Shown piece after piece: positions 8,715 to 21,241 of a DNA stretch of 64,000 nt. Every line of letters begins with the position of its first letter. Position 1 is the first letter of the stretch. The translations under genes and the position numbers were made by a program. Location of the stretch: the NCBI RefSeq assembly GCF_009496005.1, contig NZ_WIBF01000006.1, forward strand, positions 62,001 through 126,000. The letters run 5' to 3'. The notes under the pieces were generated by a model. It searched no databases, was not told the DNA's origin, and was given only the letters and a program-made list of their open reading frames with translations. Source of the stretch: Tritonibacter litoralis. Its GTDB lineage: Bacteria; Pseudomonadota; Alphaproteobacteria; Rhodobacterales; Rhodobacteraceae.

Positions 8715-9482
8715 TTATTCGCCCCGTTGCAGGCTCATCCGATAAGAGAAGCGATCGATCGGGTAAAAATTGGCCGACCCCACCAGCATCTCACCGGATG
8801 AATTGGTGCAGCGCCGCAAGAATTTCACGGTCAACGCGCCCGGTTCCAGACCAACCGCAGAGGCCGCTTCCTGCGGCACCGGTGCCACGGTGATTTCCTG
8901 ATGCACCTCATGGACCTGATCAGCCACCGCTTCGCTCAGCAGGTGACACAGGTCGCTGCCCTCCGGTGCGGCTTCAACGATGTGGCGCAAAGAGGCGTCC
9001 AGGAACATCATCGAATGGCAAATCGCCTCGCCGGTTTTGGCATCGCTGCGCACCCCCGTGACCCGCAGCCACGTGCCGGCCTCCGACAGGTTCATAAACG
9101 GGCAGCTAAAATCCGCTGCATCCACTTCGGCGATCACCGATGCGGTAAACCGCGCTTCCTGAACTTCGCGTAGGATTTCGGTAAAGGAAGAGATCGAATG
9201 CACATATGAGGTCTCTTCGGTGCGGCTCAGCACCCGGCTTCCGGACCCCTGCCGCCGCGCGATCAACCCGGCGCCGATCAGCAACCGCAAAGCCTCGCGT
9301 ACGGTGTGGCGGCTGGTCGCAAACTCAAGACACAGCTCCGCCTCTGTTGGCAAGAAACTATCCAGCGGATAAAATCCGCTGCGAATGCGTTCCGTCAAGG
9401 TATCCGCCATCCGTACATACTGTGGCCGATTGATTGACGTTACGGCATCTGCTGTCCGTTTTATCGCTAACTGTCCGCCCAT
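8715..9482 (-). CDS. GntR-family transcriptional regulator, HutC/UTRA type
   Basis: 255 residues. The N-terminal winged helix-turn-helix shows the GntR pattern (LTERIRSGFYPLDSFLPTEAELCLEFATSRHTVREALRLL then GLIARRQGSGSRV), about residues 25-90. The C-terminal half is a UTRA ligand domain (FTEI, TGEAICHSMMFLDA, EVHQEI, EPGALTVKFLRR). UTRA proteins sense small ligands such as histidine-pathway intermediates, sugars or phosphonates. No obvious target operon adjoins it; the long AT-richer region upstream (9483-9821) may hold its own operator. Confidence 0.85.
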   Translation of the reverse strand: MGGQLAIKRTADAVTSINRPQYVRMADTLTERIRSGFYPLDSFLPTEAELCLEFATSRHTVREALRLLIGAGLIARRQGSGSRVLSRTEETSYVHSISSFTEILREVQEARFTASVIAEVDAADFSCPFMNLSEAGTWLRVTGVRSDAKTGEAICHSMMFLDASLRHIVEAAPEGSDLCHLLSEAVADQVHEVHQEITVAPVPQEAASAVGLEPGALTVKFLRRCTNSSGEMLVGSANFYPIDRFSYRMSLQRGE

Positions 9483-10840: not shown

Positions 10841-10886
10841 GCGAGGCTCTGCCTCGCGCTCCGAAGTATTTTCAAAAAGATGAAAG
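10841..10886 (+). repeat. dispersed Roseobacter-type repeat, copy 1a
   Basis: GC-rich hairpin GCGAGGCTCTGCCTCGC followed by the conserved tail cgaagtatttt...aaaagatgaaag. Same family as 10906-10966, 15321-15380, 17461-17521 and 21151-21201. It faces copy 1b, making a large inverted repeat between two convergent genes. Confidence 0.8.
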
Positions 10887-10905
10887 GGCGCCGCGCCAAG
10901 GACGG

Positions 10906-10966
10906 CTTTCATCTTTTCCTAAATACTTTGGGGTGAATTGGCGCAGCCAAGAGGGGCAAAGCCCCT
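10906..10966 (-). repeat. dispersed repeat, copy 1b, ending in the dnaE terminator hairpin
   Basis: Starts ctttcatcttttcc-aaatactt and ends with the hairpin AGGGGC-AAA-GCCCCT at 10952-10966, which overlaps the dnaE stop codon (10965-10967). Inverted relative to copy 1a 20 bases away; the pair can form a long hairpin and probably ends transcription from both sides. Confidence 0.75.
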
Positions 10967-13900
10967 AGATCTCTTCGACATCCATCACCCCATCCAGTGA
11001 TTTGAGCGCACCTTTGATCTGGGGGTTGATGGGAAACATCTGACCCAATTCCAGCTCTACATCTCCGGGCAGGGTTGGATCCTGGAGATAGACATAGATC
11101 TCACCCGGGCTGGCGTTTCGGGCGGCTTTCTTGGCGTCTTCCAGCACGGTTGCCACCGTCTGTACGGCGCTTGCGCTGTCGAGGTACACCCGCAATGACG
11201 ACCGTCCCGCATCGGCAATGGCGCTGTCGACGGGGCCAACCGAGCGCACCAACAGCTTGAGCTGGTCGCTTTCCATCGTGGCTTCGGCCGTGATCACAAC
11301 CTTGGAGCCAGTGTCCAGAAACTCGCGGCTTTTCTCCAGAACCTCCGAAAACAGCGTGACTTCAAATGCGCCCGAGGGATCGGACAATTGCGCAAAGGCG
11401 AAACGGTTGCCGCGGGCGGATTTGCGTTCCTGGCGTCCCGCCACCACCCCAGCCATCTTTGCCATAAAGGGCCCGCGCTCGGCCTTGGCCGTGACCTCAT
11501 CCAGTGTCAGCACATCCTTGCGTTTCAGCGCGGGCATATAGTCATCCAGTGGATGGCCCGAGAGATAAAAGCCGATGGCGCGAAACTCTTCGGACAGACG
11601 TTCCGCAGGCAGCCAATCCGGCACCCCGGCCATGCGCGGTTCGGGCAGGTCGTCACCCGCCTCACCAAACAGCGACACCTGGTTTGAATTCTTCTGTTCC
11701 TGAATGGCGGCAGAGTAATTCACCAGCCCTTCCAAACTGTCAAACACCCGCCGACGGTTCTTGTCCAGCTGATCAAAAGCCCCCGCGCGCGCCAGCATTT
11801 CAAGCGGGCGTTTGCCGACCTTTTTCAGATCCACCCGGCGCGCCAGATCATAAAGCGTGGCAAAGGGTTTATCCCCCCTGCCCTCCACAATCAGGTTCAT
11901 CGCCTCAACGCCCACGTTTTTAAGTGCGCCCAGCGCATAGACCAGCTCACCCTTCACAACGTTAAACGTCGCCAGTGACCGGTTCACGCAAGGGGGCACA
12001 TAGGGCAGCCCCAGCCCCTTTTTGACCTCTTCAAAATAGATCGCCAGCTTTTCCGTCAGATGGATATCGCAGTTCATGACACCGGCCATAAACTCAACCG
12101 GGTGGTTCGCCTTCAGCCAGCCGGTCTGATAGCTGACCACCGCATAGGCGGCTGCGTGGGATTTGTTAAAGCCGTAGTTCGCGAATTTCTCCAGAAGGTC
12201 AAAGACCTCGGACGCTTTCTTGGCCGGAACTCCGTTTTCGGCCGCGCCTTTTTCGAACTTGGGCCGCTCGGCGTCCATCGCCTCTTTGATCTTCTTACCC
12301 ATCGCCCGACGCAGCAGGTCCGCGCCCCCCAGGGAATAGCCCGCCATCACCTGGGCAATCTGCATCACCTGTTCCTGATAGACGATGATGCCCTGGGTTT
12401 CCTCCAGAATATGGTCAATCAGCGGATGCACCGACTGGATCTTGCGCAGGCCGTTTTTAACCTCACAATAGACTGGAATGTTTTCCATCGGGCCCGGACG
12501 ATAGAGCGCCACCAGCGCCACGATGTCTTCGATACAGGTCGGCTTCATGCGCTTCAGCGCATCCATCATACCCGTGGATTCCACCTGGAACACAGCGACG
12601 GTTTTGGCAGCGGAATAAAGGTCATAGGTGACCTTGTCATCCAGCGGAATGGCGTTGATCTCATTCACCGCACCTTCGGGCGGATCATAAAGCTGGCGCC
12701 CATCGGCCGCCACATGCAGATCGCGCCCCGACTGGCGGATCAGGTTCACCGCGTTCTGAATGACAGTCAGGGTTTTCAGACCCAGAAAGTCAAACTTGAC
12801 CAGCCCCGCCTGTTCCACCCATTTCATATTGAACTGGGTCGCGGGCATATCGGATCGCGGGTCTTGGTACAGCGGCACCAGCGCATCCAGGGGCCTGTCA
12901 CCGATTACCACACCCGCCGCGTGGGTGGAGGCATTCCTGAGCAGCCCTTCGACCTGCTGGCCATAGGTCAGCAAGCGATCCACCACCGGTTCTGACCGCG
13001 CTTCTTCCTTCAGCCGCGGTTCATCCACCAGCGCCTTTTCGATGGAAACGGGTTTCACGCCCTCAACCGGGATCATCTTGGACAGGCGATCCACCTGGCC
13101 AAAGGGCATCTGCAACACCCGGCCAATGTCGCGCACCGCCGCCTTGGACAACAGCGCACCAAAGGTGATGATCTGCCCCACCTTGTCGCGGCCATATTTC
13201 TGCTGCACATAGCGGATCACCTCTTCCCGGCGATCCATGCAAAAGTCGATGTCAAAGTCCGGCATCGAGACCCGCTCCGGGTTCAAAAACCGTTCAAACA
13301 GCAGGGAATAACGCAGCGGATCCAAATCGGTGATCGTCAGCGCATAGGCCACCAGCGAGCCCGCACCAGACCCCCGGCCTGGCCCCACCGGAATACCCTG
13401 ATCCTTGCCCCATTGGATAAAATCCGCAACAATCAGGAAATAGCCAGGGAATCCCATGCTCTCAATAATACCCAGCTCGAAATCAAGCCGTTCCTGATAT
13501 TCTTCGACCGTGACCGCATGGGGGATCACCGCCAGTCGCTTCTGCAGGCCTTCATTGGCGATGCGGCGCAGCTCTGCCACCTCATCATCGGCAAATTTCG
13601 GCAGGATGGGATCACGGCGATAGGCCATGAACGCACAGCGCTGCGCAATTTCCACCGTGTTTTCAATCGCCTCGGGCAGATCCGCAAACAGCGTGATCAT
13701 CTCTTCGGGGCTTTTGAAATAATGCTGCGGCGTCAGGCGGCGACGCCCCTCCATCTGGTCGACATAGGCCCCTTCGGCGATGCAAATCAGCGCATCATGG
13801 GCCTCATACATCTCAGACTTTGGGAAATAGACGTCATTGGTCGCCACCAAGGGCAGCTCCATTGCATAGGCCATCTCGATCATCGGGCGTTCCGTCAGAC

Positions 13901-14833: not shown

Positions 14834-16267
14834 ATGACGCTCACCTTTCTCTTGAACGGTGAAGAAATCCAGGTGGAGCCTCCCTCCTCCACCACCACTT
14901 TACTTGATTTCCTCCGCGAGACCCGCGGCCTCACCGGCACCAAAGAAGGCTGCAACGAAGGCGATTGCGGCGCCTGCACCGTGATGGTGCAGGATGGCAC
15001 CACCACCCAGGCGCTCAATGCCTGCATCCTTTTCCTGCCGCAACTTCATGGCAAATCCATCACCACCGTCGAAGGGCTCGCCGCCCCCGATGGCACGTTG
15101 CATCCGGTGCAACAGGCGATGATCACCCATCACGGCAGCCAATGTGGCTTCTGCACACCGGGCTTTGTCATGTCGATGGCCACCGCCCACACCAATGGCG
15201 ACACCGACCATGCGGACCAATTGGCGGGCAACCTCTGTCGCTGCACTGGCTACGCGCCAATCCTGCGCGCCGCCAAAGCCTGCGAAGACGCGCCTGTCCC
15301 GCCCCATCTCACCGCCACCCCTTTCATCTTTTCCGAAATACTTCGGGGGGAGGTCGAAGACCGGGGGGCAGCGCCCCCCTCAATCAAACCGGCGCCCTCG
15401 CTCAACCACCCAACCAGCGCCGATGACCTGGCTGCAGCCTATGCCAAACAGCCCGATGCCACGCTGATTGCCGGGGCCACCGATGTGGGGCTCTGGGTCA
15501 CCAAATCCCTGCGCGACCTGGACCCGGTGATCTTTCTGGAGGGCTGCGCCGATCTGAAACAGATTTCGGAAACAGACAGCGCATTCACCTTTGGGGCGAT
15601 GGTTGACCTGAACCGCACCCGCAAAGCCCTTGAGCCCCATTACCCCTCGCTTGGGGAAATGCTGCGCCGCTTTGCCAGCCAGCAGGTTAGGAATGCCGCC
15701 ACTTTGGGGGGCAATATCGCCAATGGCTCCCCTATCGGAGACAGCCCACCGCCGCTGATCGCCCTCGGCGCGACCCTTACCCTGCGCCACGGTGACCGGC
15801 GGCGTCAGATTCCGTTGCAGGATTTCTTCCTCGACTACGGCAAACAGGACCGCGCGCCCGGAGAATTTGTTGAAACCATCACGGTTCCCAAACAGGCTGA
15901 TTCCTTGCGCGTCTACAAACTGTCGAAACGGTTTGATCAGGATATCTCTGCCGTCTTGGGCGCCTTTAACATCACGGTGCAGGACCAGATAATCACCGAC
16001 GCGCGCATTGCCTTTGGCGGCATGGCGGGGATCCCCAAACGCGCCGCCCATGTGGAACAGGCCCTGATCGGACAGCCCTGGTCTCAGGCCAGTATCCAAG
16101 CGGCCAAACCCGCCTTTGCCCAGGATTTTGCGCCGCTCTCGGACATGCGCGCCTCATCTGAGTATCGTCTGGCCACGGCGCAAAACATGCTGGAGCGTGC
16201 TTTTGCGGATCTGTCGAACCCGCCAAAACCAGGTCACTCCACCTCGGTTCTGGAGGTGCACCCATGA
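14834..16267 (+). CDS. xdhA: xanthine dehydrogenase small subunit (2Fe-2S and FAD domains)
   Basis: 477 residues. Two [2Fe-2S] clusters are set by C40, C45, C48, C64 and by C104, C107, C135, C137 ([25 protein letters not shown]). The FAD domain begins about residue 190 ([34 protein letters not shown]). It passes electrons from the molybdenum centre to FAD and NAD in hypoxanthine/xanthine oxidation. Residues about 163-183, in the linker between the two domains, are encoded by a dispersed repeat (15321-15380) read in frame. The stop overlaps the xdhB start as ATGA, indicating translational coupling. Confidence 0.95.
15321..15380 (-). repeat. dispersed repeat, copy 2, inserted in frame in xdhA
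   Basis: Sixty bases: ctttcatcttttccgaaata, then cttcggggggaggtcgaaga, then the hairpin arms around ccggggggcagcgcccccc. Reverse-complement orientation of copy 3. It adds about 20 residues ([20 protein letters not shown]) to the linker between the iron-sulfur and FAD domains without breaking the frame. Confidence 0.85.
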
Positions 16268-18660
16268 GCGTTGCAAAACCTTTGCCCCACGATGCGGCGA
16301 AACTGCATGTGACGGGGGCTGCGCGCTATGTGGATGACATCCCCACCCCGCGCGATTGTTTGCATCTGGCCTTTGGCCTGTCCACCGTAGCCCATGGGGA
16401 CATCACCGCGCTGGACCTGGACCCGGTGCGGGCCGCCCCCGACGTTGTGGCGGTGCTTGAAGCCTGTGACCTCCCCTTCGCCAATGACGTAAGCCCCTCG
16501 GCTCATGACGAACCTTTGCTGGCCACGGGATCCGTGCATTATCTGGGCCAGCCGCTGTTTCTGGTGGTCGCCACCTCCCACCGTGCCGCACGGGTGGCGG
16601 CGCGCCTTGCGCAGGTTGCCTATGCGGAAAAGCCTGCCCTGTTGACGGTTGAGGCGGCGCTGGCGGCCAACAGCCGTTTTGAGGATGGCCCCCGGATCTG
16701 GTCCCGTGGGGATGCGGACATGGCACTGGCCAAGGCCCCGCGCCGCCTGACCGGCACGTTTGACATTGGCGGGCAGGAGCATTTCTATCTGGAAGGTCAG
16801 GCCGCATTGGCGCTGCCCCAGGAAGATGGCGGCATGCATGTGCATTCCTCCACCCAGCACCCGACCGAGATCCAGCACAAAGTGGCCGAGGCCATTGGTT
16901 TGCCGATGCACAGCGTTCGGGTTAAAACCCGCCGTATGGGCGGTGGTTTTGGCGGCAAGGAAAGCCAGGGCAATGCGCTGGCGGTGGCCTGCGCGGTGGC
17001 GGCGGGGCTGACGGGACGCGCCTGCAAGATGCGGTATGACCGCGATGATGACATGGTGATCACCGGCAAACGCCATGCGTTTTCGGTGACTTATGATGTG
17101 GGATTTGATGACAGCGGCCGGGTGATGGCGGTGGATTTCACTCATCTGGTCAATTGCGGCTGGGCGATGGATCTGTCGCTGCCGGTGGCGGATCGCGCCA
17201 TGCTGCACAGTGACAATGCCTATTGGCTGGAACATTTCCGCGTCACCTCGCACCGGTTGAAAACCAACCTGCAAAGCGCCACCGCCTATCGCGGCTTTGG
17301 CGGCCCACAGGGCATGTTGGCCATTGAGCGGGTGATGGATCATGTGGCGCATGATCTGGGTCTGGATCCGGTGATTTTGCGCCGCAGGAATTATTATCTG
17401 GACCCCGATAGCGGCGCGGACATGGAAACCGAGAAGGCGGGTGCTGCCTCAGATTCGATGGAGGGGGGCTCTGCCCCCCGGCCTGCGGCCTCCCCCCGGA
17501 GTATTTCGGAAAAGATGAAAGGCCGGCTCACGCCCTATGGGATGGAGGTGCGGGATTTTGAGCTGAACGGGATCACCGAGCGTTTGTTGACCTCGGCCGA
17601 TTATGGGCGGCGCAGGGCCGAGATTGCGGACTGGAATGCGGGGCAATCCCATCTGCGGCGCGGGCTTGGCTTTTCACCGGTGAAATTTGGCATTTCCTTC
17701 ACGCTCACGCATCTGAATCAGGCGGGCGCTTTGGTGCATGTCTATCAGGATGGGTCGATCCATCTGAACCATGGTGGCACCGAAATGGGCCAGGGGCTGT
17801 TTCAGAAGGTGGCGCAGGTGGCCGCGCATCGTTTTGGCGTGCCCTTGGACGCGATCAAGATCACCGCAACCGACACCGGCAAAGTGCCCAATACATCCGC
17901 CACTGCGGCCTCTTCCGGGTCGGATCTGAATGGCATGGCGGTCAAGGCCGCCTGTGACAGCATTCGCGACCGTATGGCCGCACATCTGGCGGCCGAACAT
18001 CAGGTGAGCGCTGCGACAGTGGTGTTTGAGGGCGGGCATGTGCAGGTCGCAGGCGAGGAGATGAGCTTTGCTGAGGCGGCCATGCGCTGTTACACCGCAC
18101 GCGTCAGCCTGTCGGCCACTGGGTTTTATAAAACGCCCAGTTTGGAATGGGACCGGATCAAAGGCGAGGGACGGCCGTTTTTCTATTTTGCCTATGGCGC
18201 GGCGCTGAGTGAGGTGGTGGTGGATCGCCTGACCGGCGAATACCGGATCCTGCGGGCGGACATTTTGCATGATGCCGGGGCGTCGCTTAATCCGGCGTTG
18301 GACATCGGTCAGGTGGAGGGCGGATACGTGCAGGGTGCGGGCTGGCTCACGACCGAGGAACTGGTCTGGGATGACAGGGGCCGTCTGCGCACCCATGCGC
18401 CATCGACCTATAAGATCCCCGCCGCATCTGATGCACCTGAGGTGTTTAATGTGGCGCTTTGGGATGGGCAGAACCGCGAAGATACCATTTACCGCTCCAA
18501 AGCGGTGGGGGAGCCGCCGTTTATGCTGGGGATCTCAGCCTATCTGGGCTTGAGCGATGCGGTGGCGGCCTTTGGCGATGGGCGCTATCCGGCACTGGAT
18601 GCGCCGGCCACGCCCGAAGAGGTCTGGCGCGCCATCACCCGTGTGACAGGTGCGGTATGA
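16264..18660 (+). CDS. xdhB: xanthine dehydrogenase large subunit (molybdopterin-binding)
   Basis: 798 residues. Shows the XDH molybdenum-subunit landmarks: YVDDIPTP near the start, [20 protein letters not shown], the substrate-side Arg in [25 protein letters not shown], the [14 protein letters not shown] region, and the catalytic Glu in [13 protein letters not shown] near the C-terminus. It hydroxylates hypoxanthine and xanthine toward uric acid. Residues about 400-420 come from an in-frame dispersed repeat (17461-17521) placed just before the conserved TPYGMEV segment. ATGA overlaps join it to both xdhA and xdhC. Confidence 0.95.
17461..17521 (+). repeat. dispersed repeat, copy 3, inserted in frame in xdhB
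   Basis: Hairpin gaggggggctctgccccccg, a second GC-rich palindrome, then ggagtatttcggaaaagatg-aaag. Read in frame as [20 protein letters not shown]. Nearly identical to the reverse complement of copy 2 in xdhA. Confidence 0.85.
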
Positions 18661-21150: not shown

Positions 21151-21201
21151 AAGAGGCGGCTTTGGGGAGCCTCCGGCGGAAGTATTTGGGAAAAGATGAA
21201 A
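21151..21201 (+). repeat. dispersed repeat, copy 4, between ATPase and permease genes
   Basis: Reads aagaggcggctttggggagc, then ctccggcggaagtatttggg and aaaagatgaaag. Same tail as copies 1-3 but a weaker 5' hairpin. It lies in the 105-base gap between the ATPase stop and the first permease start, inside the operon. Confidence 0.8.
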
Positions 21202-21241
21202 GCGCGCCCGGACCAGAGGCGCAGATGTTGGGAGCGGCGTG

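Follow-up and report, generated by a model that had tools for sequence, protein, structure and literature searches.

A terminator-like palindromic repeat of Rhodobacterales read in frame in xanthine dehydrogenase and apparently overwritten in step with genome spellings

In a 64,000-nucleotide stretch of the Tritonibacter litoralis genome (contig NZ_WIBF01000006.1, hereafter the window), both subunits of xanthine dehydrogenase (XDH), encoded by xdhA and xdhB, contain a short palindromic repeat that is read in frame. The repeat is a dispersed terminator-like palindromic family of Rhodobacterales, a mainly marine bacterial group, and we consider it probable (about 0.7) that this family is only rarely found in frame in enzymes, that its sites there have been refilled repeatedly by copying, and that the result then passes a filter at the protein level. 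Comparison of sequences favours refilling or overwriting of the two XDH sites over inheritance alone. A stronger proposition, which we regard as an even bet, is that fixed codon sites in XdhA, XdhB and Nnr are lasting docking places overwritten in step with a genome-wide, mostly non-coding repeat; if true, a stretch of conserved enzymes would undergo concerted evolution with intergenic DNA, including swaps of module and frame, under a light protein-level filter. The original prediction, made from the window alone, had described the XDH copies as an invasion resembling the palindromic elements of Rickettsia; it had missed the sharing of the sites among many genera, the terminator-like nature of the intergenic copies, copies in a third gene, nnr, in two frames, and the tendency of in-gene copies to have their own genome's spelling.

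The repeat family in the window and across genomes

A search of the window with TTTCATCTTTTCCNAAATACTTC, allowing up to three mismatches, recovered five copies of a 23-base core, at 10863-10885 (minus strand), 10907-10929 (plus), 15322-15344 (plus), 17498-17520 (minus) and 21179-21201 (minus), and gave zero matches in 100 shuffles of the same stretch. The genes and elements concerned are as follows.

15320-15381, plus strand: xdhA copy read in frame (orientation 1), encoding residues 163-183 of XdhA, in the linker that joins its iron-sulfur domain to its FAD domain
17460-17522, minus strand: xdhB copy read in frame (sense strand: orientation 2), encoding residues about 400-420 of XdhB, directly before TPYGMEV
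14834-16267, plus strand: xdhA, XDH small subunit, open reading frame (ORF; PDB 2w3r_A, E 4e-169; 1jro_A, E 8e-169)
16264-18660, plus strand: xdhB, XDH large subunit, ORF (PDB 1jro_B, E 0)
10841-10886, minus strand: intergenic copy with a GC hairpin (gcgaggctctgcctcgc), facing the next copy; between a plus-strand ORF and dnaE (convergent)
10906-10968, plus strand: intergenic copy with a two-hairpin module, its end adjoining the dnaE stop
21168-21202, minus strand: intergenic copy with the short module gcctccggcgg, between an ATP-binding cassette (ABC) transporter ATPase ORF and a permease ORF

When the xdhA copy is aligned with the reverse complement of the xdhB copy, 62 of 69 bases are identical, and the two protein segments are in-frame read-through of the element in opposite orientations, yielding differing peptides. 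These relationships had been predicted, and they hold, as do the related intergenic copies, two opposed ones at 10841-10966 and one at 21151-21201. Of the six frames of the xdhA element, only orientation 2, frame 2 is closed within the core, by an internal TGA; the five others run through it, which would make entry in frame easy. One of these five starts on a stop codon, which lies at the outer border of the trimmed element and not in the core.

Aligned copies share a two-part core, YTTCNTNNNNNC-NN-AAATAYYYC, in which NN are two free bases. The whole element measures about 45-70 bp, and the core usually leads into a GC-hairpin module of one of a few types, namely CGCCGGAGGC; GGGGG with a short spacer and a G-rich hairpin; or GGGGG with a variable hairpin and GGGGGCAGMGCCCCC. 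Some T. litoralis copies lack such a module (for example L003, L006 and L007), and in many copies of this genome a gene-specific GC hairpin, recognised by eye, stands directly before TTTCATCTTTTC. The letters of the variable hairpin change between copies and its self-complementarity is mostly kept: among copies with the two-hairpin module, the only ones counted, the mean stem of the palindromic middles is 4.1 at xdhA (29 copies, 15 distinct) and 3.7 at xdhB (43 copies, 24 distinct), against 2.0 in shuffled sequence at either site. In T. litoralis copies outside xdh, NN is AA or CC in 43 of 65, with nearly invariant neighbouring bases; AA at this position would extend the U-run of the reverse-strand tail.

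The T. litoralis genome, which is 99.8 percent complete, holds 67 copies at up to two mismatches from TTTCATCTTTTCNNAAATAC, compared with 0 for the reversed pattern used as control. A simple gene caller based on GC position, and therefore rough, places 11 of the 67 "inside" a gene, several of these ORFs probably being over-long. ORFs spanning copies were listed and 10 of the candidates scanned with Pfam: among these, a domain spans the repeat solely in nnr (L002), domains begin after the repeat in L001 and L046, and the other 7 match no family and are taken as spurious frames. By ORF and Pfam evidence 3 of the 67 copies are genic, a count that could be low. A further in-gene copy, of the kind the original prediction had thought worth seeking, is present in nnr, and in relatives in-gene copies recur at the XDH sites and in nnr, in several frames. 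In L046 (G000:C23, about 257739-257758) the gene for QueG, epoxyqueuosine reductase, probably starts at a codon inside the GATGAA end of a repeat copy.

The same gene caller leaves 56 copies as non-genic, of which 26 lie between convergent genes, 28 between tandem genes (17 and 11), one between divergent genes and one in no assigned context. Against an assumed 25 percent, divergent placement is rare (1 of 55, p 5e-6) and convergent placement frequent (26 of 55, p 4e-4). By this rough caller, most copies in this genome sit close to the 3' ends of genes, chiefly between convergent ones, where a hairpin and then a U-containing tail can be read from either strand. Judged by sequence, the intergenic copies resemble bidirectional terminators in both position and build, and they may terminate transcription. 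Matches also occur in 22 plasmid records, and in 21 of these the best place carries no annotated feature, which is weak evidence because PLSDB annotation is incomplete (one of two records opened carries 3 features in all); the remaining place, in Paracoccus ferrooxidans, overlaps the end of a ureidoglycine aminohydrolase gene by one base, between convergent genes. Phage records gave no match. A known Rfam family was rejected, there being no match at gathering score in the window and none at E up to 1 in 15200-17650.

At least one copy is present in 115 of 246 genomes of the family at up to two mismatches from the T. litoralis spelling (controls 0 or 1 per strand), and a looser pattern found 4 to 81 copies in each of 17 further genomes (controls all 0; in 14 of the 17 the matched letters were read, completely or partly). 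The dominant core spelling varies by genome, and some spellings are common to several: CTTCTTCTGGCC..AAATATCCC dominates in Marinovum and occurs also in Leisingera and Actibacterium, CTTCATCTGGCC..AAATACCTC dominates in Roseovarius, and CTTCTTTGGGTC..AAATATCCC in Phaeobacter sp. 22II1-1F12B. Ruegeria pomeroyi combines at least three, CTTCATTTCGCC..ACTCC, YTTCCTCTTGCC..ATCCC and YTTCTTCTGTTC..ACCTC (over all 79 copies). Two or three core subfamilies per genome were noted in R. pomeroyi (G281), Leisingera aquaemixtae (G282) and Phaeobacter sp. 22II1-1F12B (G293), and in R. pomeroyi the same downstream modules stand behind different core spellings, as though cores and modules had been swapped independently of each other.

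Additionally, a copy at about the equivalent distance downstream of xdhB (near 8780-8913) occurs in 13 of the 80 named loci (L087, L088, L089, L092, L100, L105, L106, L108, L126, L128, L130, L133 and L139); its counterpart in the window, at 21168-21202, stands between two co-directional ABC-transporter ORFs. Some intergenic positions of the repeat seem to be old and kept.

In-frame copies at fixed sites in three genes

Three of the rare in-frame sites are shown here, namely the inter-domain linker of XdhA, a loop before TPYG in XdhB and a loop before CGPGNNGGDGF in Nnr/YjeF. The XDH sites were compared in XdhA and XdhB orthologues of 40 relatives and in those of named records, for which the best 80 of 433 confirmed loci were used, a choice that favours relatives of the window's protein. 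The occupancy set comprises 80 genomes, the window and 79 others (L161 was dropped, its xdhA being missing), and a site was scored as occupied when it held the core at up to two mismatches or, in three xdhB rows, the hairpin or module alone; among these three at least L112 looks spurious. Scored in this way, the element is present at the xdhA site in 25 of 80 genomes and at the xdhB site in 47, with both sites occupied in 19, xdhA only in 6, xdhB only in 28 and neither in 27. The occupied genomes fall under 23 genus names, as judged by eye from record titles, and many orthologues carry unrelated linkers at the same places.

A tree of 80 rows, with inserts removed from the proteins, was made from 76 scored genomes (all except L108, L114, L149 and L151) and four outgroup rows, three from other families (L081, L084, L085) and one distant copy from the same family (L080). 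On this quick tree, in which 18 of 77 inner branches are open, the least number of occupancy changes is 13 for xdhA and 19 for xdhB, and the element is missing in all four outgroup rows. The same residues in distant families, which would have counted against the original prediction, were not seen: rows from other families lack the insert. The insertions are real and are no local invasion of the window's genome, the same two sites being occupied in many genera. An assembly artefact at both sites, which had been named as a possible undoing of the claim, is rejected because independent genomes have the same inserts.

At the xdhB site all 54 distinct copies are read in one frame. The xdhA site is less uniform, with 31 of 34 distinct copies in one frame, L116 and L146 in a second and L152 in a third; L146 and L159 are sister rows (support of 100 in the Shimodaira-Hasegawa-like approximate likelihood ratio test) and differ in frame. 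The solved XdhB of Rhodobacter capsulatus reads GGLSAPPSPPEPIATKK at the insert site, which, at the peptide level, looks like a translated relic of the element, and L104, from a lineage with no clear copy, has an apparent degraded relic with 3 mismatches. AlphaFold2 models place residues 167-187 of XdhA and 384-419 of XdhB below 50 in predicted local distance difference test (pLDDT), the XdhB model being the weaker (mean pLDDT 75.7, ten other low stretches); both inserts are predicted to lie in disordered, coil stretches. They are probably tolerated because they encode disordered linker sequence. In XdhA of R. pomeroyi (L123) and Tritonibacter aquimaris (L089) the last module of the element (GCAGAGCCCCC) is tandemly expanded, giving repeated AEPP peptides.

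The third gene, L002 of T. litoralis (G000 contig C1, 69884-71575), encodes Nnr/YjeF (PF03853, PF01256) and has its in-frame copy before CGPGNNGGDGF. Counted by eye, the element is present in 13 of 19 same-family loci in which the region is present (L228 degraded), 12 of the 13 being from the window's genus, and it is missing in the other 6 and in all 8 loci from other families. Seven copies are read as PKYLGKDE and six as RDISEKMK; modules differ as well, and both frames occur within the window's genus. Compared by site, the peptides are SISEKMK in XdhB and PKYLGKDE or DISEKMK in Nnr, with partial peptide conservation within the XdhB site and frame.

Proposed refilling of the sites weighed against other explanations

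If the same sites have been filled again and again during evolution, an in-gene copy should usually take the spelling current in its genome. This was examined with 21 in-gene xdh cores from 15 genomes whose spellings could be read, leaving out three genomes with spellings covered in part and taking as genome spellings those seen at least twice with xdh copies excluded. The summed core distance to own-genome spellings is 43. Permuting the genomes gives a mean of 90.2 (sd 8.3) and no sum as low as 43 in 20,000 permutations, a figure that is not a descent-corrected probability, as the genomes are related. For 16 of the 21 cores no genome is nearer than their own, which alone is nearest for 8; an earlier variant, in which xdh copies and one singleton could be among the spellings, gave a sum of 40 and 17 of 21. 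The xdhA site of Ruegeria illustrates the pattern, with CTTCATTTCGCC in R. pomeroyi, CTTCCTCTTGCC in HKCCD8929 and CTTCTTCTGTTC in HKCCA6707, three subfamilies that are all present in the R. pomeroyi genome. Related species thus differ in subfamily or module, and in frame at xdhA and nnr, which argues that copies were overwritten or re-inserted. Similarly, stems that are kept while their letters change, taken with the spelling data, suggest that other copies have repeatedly served as the source for replacing or re-inserting these. The copying itself might be gene conversion or templated re-insertion.

A protein-level filter would then keep acceptable residues at NN, where in-gene xdh copies favour G as the second base. 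In the ISEK frame of nnr the second free base is G in 5 of 6 copies, and in the YLGK frame in 0 of 7, 5 of which have CC (by eye). In the ISEK frame G encodes Ser, and AA or CC would instead put Phe or Trp there; in the YLGK frame AA would produce a stop. This frame-dependent preference suggests that the encoded residue is under selection, and hence that the inserts are translated and filtered.

Several observations weigh against this account. Five of the 21 cores are nearer to another genome's spelling (L152 at both sites, and L165, L137 and L119 at xdhB), 8 more tie because genomes share several spellings, and the permutation does not correct for descent. Among in-gene xdh copies the second free base is G in 75 of 88, against 14 of 119 among the others, and NN is AA in 3 of 88 and 41 of 119, respectively (related sequences, with inflated p-values); fresh copies without later selection would not show such a bias. 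Element identity exceeds second-codon-position identity in just 16 of 41 comparisons (printed figures). Neither terminal inverted repeats nor target duplications were recognised by eye in aligned copies, the Y1/RAYT transposase (PF01797; RAYT, transposase associated with repetitive extragenic palindromes, REPs) has 0 matches in the T. litoralis genome (the control search was positive in 5 of 14 genomes), and the copying process is deduced, not seen. As for termination, RNA folding z-scores of -2.2 to +0.4 for six stretches are not unusually stable, and a consensus terminator scan picked up two window copies by their upstream-hairpin side alone (21223-21203 and 17536-17519) and not by the GC-module side. 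The U-tails also look weak in some genomes' versions of the repeat.

The most serious competitor, which we nevertheless hold to be unlikely, is a single ancient insertion per site, inherited vertically and selected at the DNA or RNA level as a binding site co-evolving with a trans-acting factor, whether protein or RNA. The many occupied genera and the apparent degraded relic in L104 would fit it, as would the differing dominant spellings of genomes and the preservation of the element itself. In 26 hand-picked genome pairs, both members carry an element in 21 xdhA and 20 xdhB comparisons. Element identity there ranges over 0.76-0.95 at xdhA and 0.67-0.94 at xdhB and fourfold-site identity over 0.44-0.85 and 0.50-0.86, and the former is the higher in 41 of 41, elements having been chosen by the core pattern, which raises their identity somewhat; this result speaks for refilling too. 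However, swaps of module or frame would not arise from point-wise co-evolution, and module type and frame vary at nnr among congeners, as does the xdhA frame between the sisters L146 and L159. Several subfamilies moreover coexist within one genome (three in R. pomeroyi), and related Ruegeria differ at the same site.

Far less probable is a joint role of the xdhA and xdhB copies in which a long-range duplex between them in xdhAB mRNA regulates or processes the transcript. The copies are mutually reverse-complementary, with a predicted energy of -115 kcal/mol in the window, and complementarity within genomes is 0.855 against 0.767 between them (0 of 20,000 permutations, 22 genomes), but shared spelling within a genome accounts for this similarity, and own pairing ranks 22nd (L094) and 21st (L125) of 22. 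A duplex as the reason for the pair was rejected as unneeded, since one copy stands alone in 34 of 53 occupied genomes. Least credible of all is the view that the segments are ordinary linkers of low complexity, rich in Gly, Ala and Pro as suits a GC-rich genome, and look like the repeat by chance. Both sites are indeed of low model confidence and probably disordered, and unrelated linkers are frequent in orthologues; chance was rejected on the long near-identity to non-coding intergenic copies and the zero matches in controls, and spelling usually tracks the genome. Refilling by copying accordingly remains the reading that we prefer.

Comparison with known palindromic elements

In-frame palindromic elements have been described for Rickettsia. 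The resemblance drawn by the original prediction stands in kind: the present repeats are dispersed palindromes of an alphaproteobacterium, mostly intergenic, and in frame, with hairpins, inside several unrelated genes (xdhA, xdhB and nnr). Membership among Rickettsia palindromic elements (RPEs) is not supported. In the passages of a review that deal with them, RPEs are about 150 bp long, nearly half lie in ORFs and each encodes a conserved peptide (PMC10969869); the present repeat has neither that length nor a conserved encoded peptide, and going by these descriptions it is set apart by its 45-70 bp, by 3 genic copies of 67, by several frames in both orientations, with a peptide that varies accordingly, and by terminator-like intergenic copies.

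Position at gene 3' ends recalls two other kinds. SPRITE of pneumococcus is expanded in the same review, in the passage on it, as "rho-independent terminator-like element" (PMC10969869), and REPs can act in transcription termination according to the part of a Bradyrhizobium study that treats them (PMC5082802). A REP/RAYT system was rejected here, as T. litoralis has no Y1_Tnp match, and the passages on SPRITE and REPs do not mention in-frame copies at fixed sites across genera. Short non-autonomous miniature inverted-repeat transposable elements (MITEs), such as QMITE of Coxiella and intragenic ERIC, can add in-frame peptides, as stated in passages of two papers (PMC5896051, PMC10969869). QMITE1 is given there as 300-400 bp and QMITE2 as 150-190 bp, both with direct repeats (PMC5896051), unlike the copies here, in which neither terminal inverted nor direct repeats were recognised by eye.

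As far as the relevant passages of these sources go, the nearest kinds are RPEs, QMITEs and REPs (PMC10969869, PMC5896051, PMC2635572, PMC5082802). The present repeat was not found described in the open-licence literature on palindromic elements of this group, as covered by titles and the starts of abstracts, most subscription journals lying outside that scope. As far as searched, it is an undescribed and real variant of in-frame palindromic repeats, apparently overwritten in step with genome spellings. In one passage the MITE review deems a similar route of protein evolution conceivable in other prokaryotes (PMC10969869); such a route is seen here in Rhodobacterales, in identified enzymes and at the same sites, with an apparent remnant in an enzyme that has been crystallised. 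The old question whether inserts of this kind are tolerated, of use or just selfish becomes directly testable, as XDH can be assayed and its structure solved with and without the insert, and, if overwriting is the correct reading, a coding sequence changes in concert with an intergenic repeat family.

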